64,000 nucleotides of DNA from Nodosilinea sp. FACHB-141. GTDB taxonomy: Bacteria > Cyanobacteriota > Cyanobacteriia > Phormidesmidales > Phormidesmidaceae. Shown here in pieces: positions 5,842 through 7,446 of this stretch. The position numbers and the translations under genes are program-made. The notes beneath the pieces are model-generated. The model was not told the DNA's origin. It searched no databases and was given only the letters and a program-made list of their open reading frames with translations. The stretch is from the NCBI RefSeq assembly GCF_014696135.1, contig NZ_JACJPP010000012.1, positions 248,001-312,000 on the forward strand, written 5' to 3'. Position 1 is the first letter of the stretch; each line of letters opens with the position of its first letter.

Positions 5842-6159
5842 ATGCACTCTTCCTCCCCCTGTTTTTTGATGACTCGTCTGGCCTGCGCCGCTAGCCTGGG
5901 CCTAGTTATGGCTACTGCCGCGCCCCTGGGCCTATCTGCTGGGCTCGAAGCCAGCTCCGAAGCTACCCTGCGCACCGCGGCTCGTGCTGAGGACGATCGC
6001 GGTAGCGGTCGCCTCAGCCGGGTGCCTGCGATCGCGGGCTGGCTCAGCTTTCGCGGCAGTGGTCGGGTTGATCCCACCCCTCCCCAACCCTCCTTTGGCA
6101 GTGATAGCCCCGTTGCCTACCGCGGCAGCGGCAGAATTACTAAGACTCGCATCACCTAG
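5842..6159 (+). CDS. patX: PatX-like secreted precursor with three RGSGR pentapeptides
   Basis: 105-residue predicted secreted protein, probable source of HetR-inhibiting peptide. The N-terminus looks like a signal peptide: TR at residues 11-12, then a hydrophobic Ala/Leu stretch to about 33. The mature part carries the exact pentapeptide RGSGR three times: residues 53-57 (nt 5998-6012), 71-75 (6052-6066) and 94-98 (6121-6135). Each copy follows a different residue (D, F, Y) and precedes a branched hydrophobic one (L, V, I); spacers are 13 and 18 residues. RGSGR is the active pentapeptide of PatS and of PatX, the RGSGR protein genetically linked to hetR in filamentous cyanobacteria, and hetR is the next gene on the same strand. 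ATG 5842 is used (AAGG about 11 nt upstream); an in-frame ATG at 5869 would also leave a signal peptide. Codon choice differs among the three repeats, so the copies are not a recent DNA duplication. Peptide release and export are inferred. Confidence 0.88.
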   Translation: MHSSSPCFLMTRLACAASLGLVMATAAPLGLSAGLEASSEATLRTAARAEDDRGSGRLSRVPAIAGWLSFRGSGRVDPTPPQPSFGSDSPVAYRGSGRITKTRIT

Positions 6160-6507
6160 CTTTCTCTAGCCTTTGCCGGCTTAGGGTCAGCTAGTTGATG
6201 CGTTGGGTTTCTGTTGACCCTGCTCTACGACTAAATGAATTTAACCTGCAATAGGGGTCAATTTGGCAGATTTTGAGTCACACTTAAACCTAATCAGGTG
6301 TAATTTCTTTGGCTGACGGCTTGGCCGTCAACCCTCGTCAAAGCTTCAAACAATTAAACGTATTTATATTGCCTTATTCATGGTGCGTCTTCTTGCAGAG
6401 CATTTAAATTAAGCTGTATCTGCTATTTCTGACAATTCTCAGCGGTTTTGCCCCCTTAGCAGCGGGGGTCGCGATACCGCCTGTTGTTCTGAGCTTCCCC
6501 AAGTCCG
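6160..6507 (+). promoter_or_regulatory. patX-hetR intergenic / hetR leader with three dyads
   Basis: 348 bp without an ORF. Three inverted repeats stand out: AGGGTCA (6183-6189) with TGACCCT (6215-6221), just after patX; TGACGGC (6314-6320) with GCCGTCA (6324-6330), a tight 7-bp hairpin; and a two-tier hairpin made of GCGGT/ACCGC (6442-6446 / 6476-6480) around CCCCC/GGGGG (6451-6455 / 6464-6468), ending 27 nt before the hetR start. The middle of the region is AT-rich and is the likely place for a hetR promoter. Whether any dyad is a HetR operator or only RNA structure cannot be decided by reading. Confidence 0.5.
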
Positions 6508-7446
6508 ATGGCCGAACCCCTTCTCTCAATGTCTCTGTCTGCCCTAGCGGTAGAAGACGAAGCCCTGATTCGCCGCCTCAGCCCCAGTGCCATCGATCAG
6601 ATACTGCTTTACATCGCCTTCAGCGCTATGCGAACGGGGGGGCATCGCCACGGGGCCTTTTTAGATGCAGCGGCCACGGCGGCTAAGTGCGCCATCTACA
6701 TGACCTATCTAGAGCAGGGCGAAAACCTGCGTATGACGGGCCATCTGCACCACATTGAGCCCAAGCGGGTCAAGGCCATTGTCGAAGAAATGCGCCAGGC
6801 CCTCACTGAGGGCAAGCTGCTTAAAATGCTGGGCTCCCAAGAACCCCGCTATCTCATTCAATTTCCCTACATGTGGCTGCGGCGCTACCCTTGGAGATCA
6901 GGGCAGTCGCGGGTCTCGGGCACCTCTCTAACCAGTGACGAAAAAGCGCTGCTGGAGAGCCGGCTGCCCAAACCCTGTCCCGATGCCCGGATTATCAACT
7001 CGTTTCAGTTTTTAGAGCTGATTGAAATTCTCCACGAAAAGTCTCAGGATGACCTGCCTGTAGAGCACCGCGTACCCCTGAGCGAAGCTCTGGCCGAGCA
7101 TATCCGGCGGCGGCTGATCTATTCGGGTACTGTGGCGCGCATTGATGCCTCCTGGGGGGCTTCGTACTATGGGCTGGCCCGGTCTTCCTATGCTCCGGTT
7201 GATGACCAAGAGCGCATGTACGCCATGGTCGAAGATACGGCTCAGTACTTTCGCATGATGCGCGAGTGGGCCAACGGCATTCCTGGCACGATGCGTGTGT
7301 TAGAAGAATTAGATATTCCCGTCGCTGCTCGCGATGCTGCTCTCCAAGAGCTAGACGAAGTAATTCGCACCTGGGCCGATAAGTATCACCAGCCGGGTGG
7401 CGAACCTACTCTCTTGCAGATGGTGATTGGCCACCACATCAAATAG
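6508..7446 (+). CDS. hetR: HetR, master regulator of heterocyst/filament patterning
   Basis: DNA-binding regulator that forms dimers and is antagonised by RGSGR peptides. The 312-residue product matches HetR along its length: [69 protein letters not shown] and [11 protein letters not shown]. By my alignment it runs 13 residues longer at the N-terminus than Anabaena HetR, giving these equivalents: Cys61 (C48), Ser165 (S152), Ser192 (S179), Arg236 (R223), Glu267 (E254) and Asp269 (D256). The last three belong to the hood region needed for PatS/RGSGR response, so this HetR should still sense the peptide. Start ATG 6508 or the in-frame ATG 6529; neither has a strong Shine-Dalgarno. Directly downstream of patX on the same strand. 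HetR also occurs in filamentous species without heterocysts, so its presence does not prove differentiation. Confidence 0.96.

Follow-up and report, generated by a model that had tools for sequence, protein, structure and literature searches.

A candidate multi-copy PatX precursor with three conserved RGSGR pentapeptides beside hetR in Nodosilinea

The PatX proteins of filamentous cyanobacteria, Nostoc/Anabaena PCC 7120 among them, are small, have a hydrophobic N-terminus and an RG(S/T)GR pentapeptide, and come with a DIF1-type promoter and a hetR companion. In Nostoc, PatX carries HRGTGR once, is exported and cut by PatP, and the hexapeptide HRGTGR inhibits HetR (PMC12756182). Anabaena has two further sources of the RGSGR inhibitor of HetR, namely PatS, a 17-residue peptide (PMC12756182) ending in RGSGR, and HetN, a putative ketoacyl reductase (PMC4649674). 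The patX gene of Leptolyngbya BL0902 has been deleted and profiled, its copy number being unmentioned in the available parts of that report (PMC11298460). Among Bacillus Rap-Phr systems, one prepeptide can hold several identical or slightly varied penta- or hexapeptide signals (PMC5199041). Here we describe a candidate PatX with three RGSGR copies, encoded upstream of hetR in a stretch of 64,000 nucleotides (the window) from the 5.9-Mb genome assembly of Nodosilinea sp. FACHB-141. Its open reading frame (ORF) and motif copies are placed as follows.

5842-6159, + strand: patX precursor with three RGSGR copies, 105 aa from an ATG start (ORF call and homologues across the genus)
5878-5922, + strand: hydrophobic, signal-peptide-like N-terminal stretch, residues 13-27, hydropathy 1.93 over 15 residues
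5998-6012, + strand: RGSGR copy 1, CGC GGT AGC GGT CGC, context EDD-RGSGR-L
6052-6066, + strand: RGSGR copy 2, CGC GGC AGT GGT CGG, context SF-RGSGR-V
6121-6135, + strand: RGSGR copy 3, CGC GGC AGC GGC AGA, context AY-RGSGR-I

The coordinates and codons of these three exact copies bear out a sequence-only reading of the stretch that had reported them, and the residues which that reading placed before them (D, F, Y) and after them (L, V, I) are those of the translated ORF. When the 105 residues were shuffled 200,000 times, one RGSGR appeared in 328 shuffles and two in none; the three copies are therefore not due to chance. The protein continues for seven residues after the last RGSGR, and patX lies upstream of hetR on the same + strand with a gap of 348 nt. 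The best 15-residue hydropathy of 1.93, reached from residue 13, compares with 0.59 beyond residue 52; the hydrophobic part of the N-terminus that had been called signal-peptide-like is thus real, and by plain hydropathy the N-terminus resembles a signal peptide. An RG(S/T)GR pentapeptide, a hydrophobic N-terminus and hetR companionship, features of PatX after Elhai and Khudyakov (2018) as given in PMC11298460 and PMC12756182, were all found in the window ORF. Judged by its architecture (hydrophobic N-terminus, DIF1-like TCCTGA and hetR linkage), the ORF is a PatX. In contrast to the single HRGTGR of Nostoc PatX, its three copies follow D, F and Y. The PatX of BL0902 (GFS31_32390; L020), which belongs to the same genus group, likewise has three RGSGR beside hetR but carries I before the second copy, where the window PatX has F. 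PatS is a very short peptide ending in RGSGR, which the 105-aa window protein is not, and neither PatS nor HetN is a hetR-linked multi-copy precursor.

A matching patX ORF was found in 26/26 genomes of the genus examined, with 2 to 5 RG(S/T)GR copies per patX (the count in L019 is cut by a contig end). Nonsynonymous (pN) and synonymous (pS) changes were counted in 18 of these 26 genomes; set aside were G001, G013 and G021 with four or five copies, G018 and G024 with two, G006 with a cut ORF, and the more divergent three-copy genomes G002 and G014. All 15 RGSGR residues were invariant in 18/18 congeners at a motif pS of 0.40, and the motif-column pN of 0.003 comes, we take it, from path averaging between two kinds of Arg codon. 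The linkers had a pN/pS of 0.54 (pS 0.58) and the N-terminal part of patX one of 0.57, while the flanking columns -2, -1 and +1 together gave 0.06. The D before copy 1, the F before copy 2 and the Y before copy 3 were each invariant in 18/18 congeners; in G014, which is BL0902, I stands ahead of copy 2 instead of F. A drift of RGSGR within an otherwise conserved protein would have spoken against the sequence-only reading, and the opposite was seen, RGSGR being better conserved than the remainder. By these substitution patterns, each RGSGR copy is under strong separate constraint.

How rare three copies are had been left unsaid by that reading, and a survey of RGSGR counts upstream of hetR answers it: three are usual in Nodosilinea, and multi-copy precursors are usual in the family and rare elsewhere. 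HetR (PF03574) is present in 196/388 genomes sampled from the class, in 60/63 of the window's family and in 41/42 of family f15. DNA upstream of hetR was examined in 172 genomes among the matches listed. Six genomes with hetR close to contig ends (G060, G088, G238, G298, G302, G308) were not taken in, and seven loci that are a further hetR of a counted genome, one duplicate locus, L028-L030 (no hetR) and G006 (precursor contig ending before hetR) were dropped before the count. An RG(S/T)GR ORF lies within 1.6 kb upstream of hetR in 133/172 genomes and was found there in none of the other 39. Of these 39, 23 belong to family f32 and all have a patX elsewhere that exceeds the cut-off of the curated model; four belong to the window's family, two with less than 320 nt of upstream sequence and two with a divergent single HetR match 45-48% identical to the window HetR. 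Within the window's family, 48/52 linked precursors are multi-copy, with two copies in 5, three in 26, four in 12, five in 3 and nine in 2. Outside it, 77/81 precursors are single-copy. The exceptions are G209 with eight copies, G253 with five, G094 with three and G340 with two; together with G203, whose precursor carries an RGSGR and an RGSDR, they make up a single branch of f15. This branch (support 91) is part of a larger one of support 99, to which two single-copy genomes belong as well. The multi-copy group is nested within f15 (support 89) and stands apart from the window's family; the f15 expansion is a separate one. On a quick HetR tree of 132 rows, many of whose deep forks are weak, the single- or multi-copy state requires six changes, a count without power to tell gain from loss. 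The multi-copy PatX is thus confirmed and strongly conserved; it is the norm within its own family and the exception elsewhere.

Two simple correlates of copy number were unsupported. Copy number does not follow the number of HetR paralogues, as five genomes of genus g3, each with one HetR match, carry between four and nine copies, while genus g1 has mostly three copies and two or three HetR matches per genome. A tie to nitrogen fixation is equally unsupported, as genomes with and without nifH are both multi-copy (G000 and G009, for example). A nifH above the curated cut-off was found in 26/63 window-family genomes and not in the window genome (G000), whose one match scored 221.7 bits against a cut-off of 394 and is presumably BchL. 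No other RGSGR precursor was found in the window genome with the codon pattern CGN-GGN-AGY-GGN-CGN, which misses copy 3 and any TCN or AGR codon and is not a full census; the pattern occurs in 11 places, two of them within patX. None of the remaining nine shares a contig with a hetR match, and by eye none resembles a small secreted precursor with repeated motifs.

The DNA of several relatives suggests how copies are made. Tandem repeats occur with a period of 36 in L126 (nine copies), 48 in L024 and 45 in L203, and L092 has a 33/63 tandem repeat pattern. Such variation of copy number by DNA-level tandem repeats fits a modular precursor. No tandem array was found among the three copies of the window patX, which, with their different codons, therefore look old. 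In L019 and L203, which probably belong to one species, the contig ends within a tandem array of 45-bp FRGSGRIGTDSDVLA units, which limits their copy counts. L115 (G154) has two tandem single-copy patX genes before one hetR, a gene duplication and not a set of intragenic copies.

The residues that precede the copies follow an order. Among the 48 multi-copy precursors of the window's family, the first copy is preceded by D in 30, H in 12, N in 3, E in 2 and Y in 1, and the last by Y in 39, W in 6, H in 2 and F in 1, so that the first copy follows D/E/H/N in 47/48 and the last follows Y/W/F in 46/48. Polar-first and aromatic-last holds in 9/11 genera, which 42/100,000 within-precursor shuffles reach; the figure is descriptive, since the genera are related and independence is overstated. 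In G027 and G354, for example, seven copies after D are followed by two after Y, and genus g2 shows H-Y-H-Y; G030 (H, H) and G135 (Y, H) depart from the order. In single-copy precursors, H precedes the motif in 63/81, four of the 81 coming from the window's family.

Upstream of patX lies a promoter element on which, like the wider family pattern, the sequence-only reading was silent.

5781-5786, + strand: TCCTGA element, DIF1-like, presumptive -35, 61 nt before the patX ATG
5805-5809, + strand: GTAAC block, presumptive -10, at fixed spacing from TCCTGA

TCCTGA was present within 450 nt before the first motif in 132/133 precursors, including 81/81 outside the window's family. The runner-up hexamer, CCTGAT (80/133), overlaps it, and the commonest non-overlapping hexamer was CGATCG (78/133). 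In a column profile anchored on TCCTGA (136/138 ORFs, near-duplicates included), positions +24 to +26 were G at 0.88, T at 0.79 and A at 0.93; at loci with more than one TCCTGA, preference was given to the one ahead of a G-T/A-A, a choice that flatters the GTAAC block slightly. The DIF1 motif published for Anabaena, TCCGGA, has its centre near -35, and patX needs hetZ to be expressed from it (PMC7377430); the window element differs from it by one base. Neither a terminator-like site on the + strand nor a HetR site was found between patX and hetR, and in BL0902, according to its authors, patX and hetR appear to share a transcript that starts at a predicted DIF1 promoter (PMC11298460). A GGGN5CCC at 6065-6075 inside patX was rejected as a HetR site, the pattern being at chance level in the window (31 occurrences vs 35.7 expected). 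Many patX promoters have a perfect inverted repeat 3' of TCCTGA (window equivalent 5781-5842), with arms that vary by lineage, such as GTATCA...TGATAC and TCTGAATCA...TGATTCAGA. In 126 distinct promoter stretches the mean longest perfect stem was 5.4 vs 4.4 in mononucleotide shuffles, at positions that differ between lineages, and 20/126 beat their own shuffled control by at least 2. An Rfam scan of 4000-9000 gave no match at the gathering score, and a tRNA scan of the window found none.

The partner gene and its pocket are the following.

6508-7446, + strand: hetR, 312 aa (NF009718; PF03574, PF18460; PDB 3qod, 4hri)
7213-7380, + strand: hood-domain peptide pocket, from alignment to Anabaena HetR

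The window HetR scores 508.7 bits against NCBIfam NF009718 (cut-off 489), and among the best 80 named loci, which possibly lack the window genome's own records, the closest is the 100% identical HetR of Nodosilinea sp. FACHB-131. The residues that matter for PatS6 binding are R223, E253, E254, D256, D270 and D278 (PMC4649674). In the alignment they correspond to Arg236, Glu266, Glu267, Asp269, Asp283 and Asp291 of the window protein, all six identical. The proposal of a PatX-type precursor upstream of hetR therefore holds up, with three separately constrained pentapeptides beside a HetR that has the full PatS pocket. At least two HetR matches, some of them fragments, occur in 44/63 window-family genomes. 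In the window genome a second HetR-like protein, 49% identical, is encoded on another contig (G000:C15:203359-203805; L162, L277); its pocket is intact except at position 254, where E is replaced by V, and no RG(S/T)GR ORF was found in the 1.3 kb upstream of it. In genus g34 (L169-L174) the HetR of six genomes has N for D at positions 256 and 278, and the five of these whose linked PatX could be read carry just one copy or two. In genus g3 (G027, G354, G196, G234, G359) HetR 254 is S, and this genus has the longest arrays of D/E-RGSGR units; the HetR of G354 and that of G027 are identical in the columns compared. HetR position 254 helps to hold the peptide N-terminus. A raw association between this position and the residue preceding RGSGR found no support beyond shared ancestry; supported branches gave only 5 independent pairs, in which position 254 was concordant in 0.5 on average and showed no difference in 4.5.

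We think it probable, if well short of certain, that the window ORF is a multi-copy PatX, a prohormone-like secreted precursor cut into several HetR-inhibiting (X)RGSGR peptides. Transcription would start at the DIF1-like TCCTGA promoter and probably run on into hetR. PatX would be exported via its hydrophobic N-terminus, and one or more periplasmic peptidases of the PatP kind would cut the variable linkers, each PatX molecule giving several (X)RGSGR penta- or hexapeptides; these would be taken up by the producing cell or its neighbours, where they would occupy the hood pocket of HetR and free HetR from DNA. XRGSGR, where X can be any residue, is the most likely mature form, and extension at the N-terminus to at least seven residues should lower the affinity for HetR (PMC4649674), for which reason the precursor would need cutting. 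More copies would mean more inhibitor per transcript, and an extra dose from three copies is plausible. The other suggestion of the sequence-only reading, that the flanking residues give peptides of distinct affinity, is disfavoured, because the residue before RGSGR was substituted without a change in HetR affinity (PMC4649674). Losing that residue does matter, the dissociation constant (Kd) rising from 7 nM for the hexapeptide to 227 nM for the pentapeptide (PMC4649674). The flank could therefore exert its effect by way of cleavage. The preceding residue (D first; F and Y later) would most likely set the place or rate of cleavage and not HetR binding.

Several observations weigh against this account. 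Against the curated model NF047413 (heterocyst_PatX) the window PatX scored 12.3 bits (cut-off 30, E 0.22), with an alignment of 13 residues around one RGSGR. The hydrophobic N-terminal part was clear by a plain hydropathy threshold in 110/133 precursors, that is, not in all. Trimming to a single unit appears unproven even in Nostoc, where two non-tryptic peptides flanking HRGTGR were seen with PatP only, the cleavage site named lies 27 residues before HRGTGR in an Escherichia coli reporter, and the precise sites were left open (PMC12756182). The strongest contrary evidence comes from the transcriptome of BL0902, where 428 genes changed in ΔpatX and the authors regard PatX effects as basically HetR-independent: in two groups of genes with opposite PatX and HetR effects, groups 2 and 3, the Δ[patX-hetR] double deletion resembles ΔpatX, contrary to ΔhetR (PMC11298460). 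These data also favour the view that PatX in this non-heterocystous lineage has its main target outside this HetR, in a different regulator or a receptor at the cell surface for which the repeated RGSGR is kept, a view that we consider somewhat unlikely. The window genome does offer the second HetR-like protein (49%) with a pocket intact except for E254 to V, and with no nifH above the cut-off heterocyst spacing is an unlikely role. However, patX stays beside hetR family-wide, the window HetR keeps all six pocket residues, and BL0902 has three hetR-like genes (PMC11298460), matched by three HetR matches in our count for its genome, so that one deletion may leave HetR-type activity and the counter-evidence is tempered.

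The copies might instead be functionally different units, those after D/E/H/N yielding a strong hexapeptide and those after Y/W/F being cut behind the aromatic residue to a weak pentapeptide. The order of flanks in 47/48 first copies, 46/48 last copies and 9/11 genera, the invariant D, F and Y in 18 congeners and the 227 vs 7 nM Kd values (PMC4649674) all speak for it; shared ancestry of the genera inflates the shuffle figure, two genera break the order, G014 has I before copy 2, and coupling of the preceding residue with HetR 254 is not shown, the 5 independent pairs giving little power. On balance we find it unlikely. Copy number could also be neutral, tandem duplication making and losing copies without functional effect, as the DNA tandem arrays and the decayed copies (RGSDR in G198 and G203, RGGGR in G304) attest gain and loss; spare copies would decay, however, and the motif residues are unchanged in 18 congeners despite a pS of 0.40 (linkers 0.58), which makes neutrality very unlikely in our view. 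That an uncut precursor binds both pockets of a HetR dimer by avidity seems extremely improbable. Each chain has several RGSGR and a HetR dimer takes two PatS peptides, but an N-terminal extension is said to lower affinity, R223 adjoins the free C-terminus of the bound peptide (PMC4649674), and the PatX of Nostoc acts only once it is outside the cytosol (PMC12756182), while HetR is an intracellular DNA-binding protein. A bolder extension of the multi-copy reading would make PatX a developmental prohormone of heterocyst-free filaments, its two ordered classes (polar residue first, aromatic last) maturing into a strong hexapeptide and a weak pentapeptide with two signal ranges, and copy number and class ratio being evolved inhibitor settings of a Turing-type circuit; we regard this as quite unlikely.

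By analogy with multi-copy signal precursors elsewhere, the copies of the window PatX, which are present and constrained, would be released separately. The Rap-Phr proteins of Bacillus are unrelated, and their varied copies serve receptor divergence (PMC5199041). In the window PatX, on the other hand, the pentapeptide core is unvarying in 18 congeners, with RGTGR in some relatives. Yeast alpha-factor is a eukaryotic secreted peptide precursor with multiple copies, copy-number variation and defined dibasic processing sites. It shares with the window PatX the multiple copies and their varying number, but no dibasic sites are evident in PatX.

The curated model NF047413 is exceeded by 0/63 window-family genomes and by 31/388 class genomes, 23 of them in f32; 39 weak matches (E up to 1) in the window's family are noise, as 11/14 unrelated controls show some. 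A multi-copy patX may still be annotated as an unnamed ORF, like GFS31_32390 in BL0902. A 2025 survey that used Pfam and PGAP profiles with trusted cut-offs assigned patP and hetR without patX to 12.0% of genomes, Leptolyngbya cf. ectocarpi LEGE 11479 being named among them (PMC12756182). We infer that some such patX-less genomes may hold a multi-copy PatX. A description of multi-copy PatX was not found in the literature searched, and the available parts of PMC11298460, PMC7761841, PMC12756182 and PMC5812504 do not mention it; the survey of Elhai and Khudyakov (2018) was outside this literature, and priority is uncertain. That survey may have had in view such sequences as that of Nodosilinea nodulosa PCC 7104 (L196), a named public record with three copies.

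Surveys that rely on curated PatX models could accordingly score genomes of the window's family as having hetR without patX. The natural range of 1 to 9 copies, together with the conserved order of flanks, supplies a dose series ready-made and a way into the question of how PatX is cut, and Leptolyngbya BL0902 is a genetically tractable three-copy member. The ordered two-class flanks and the repeated changes in copy number are the parts that deserve experiments, in a peptide-regulator pair, PatX-HetR, that is regarded as an ancient one of cyanobacterial multicellularity, predating heterocysts.

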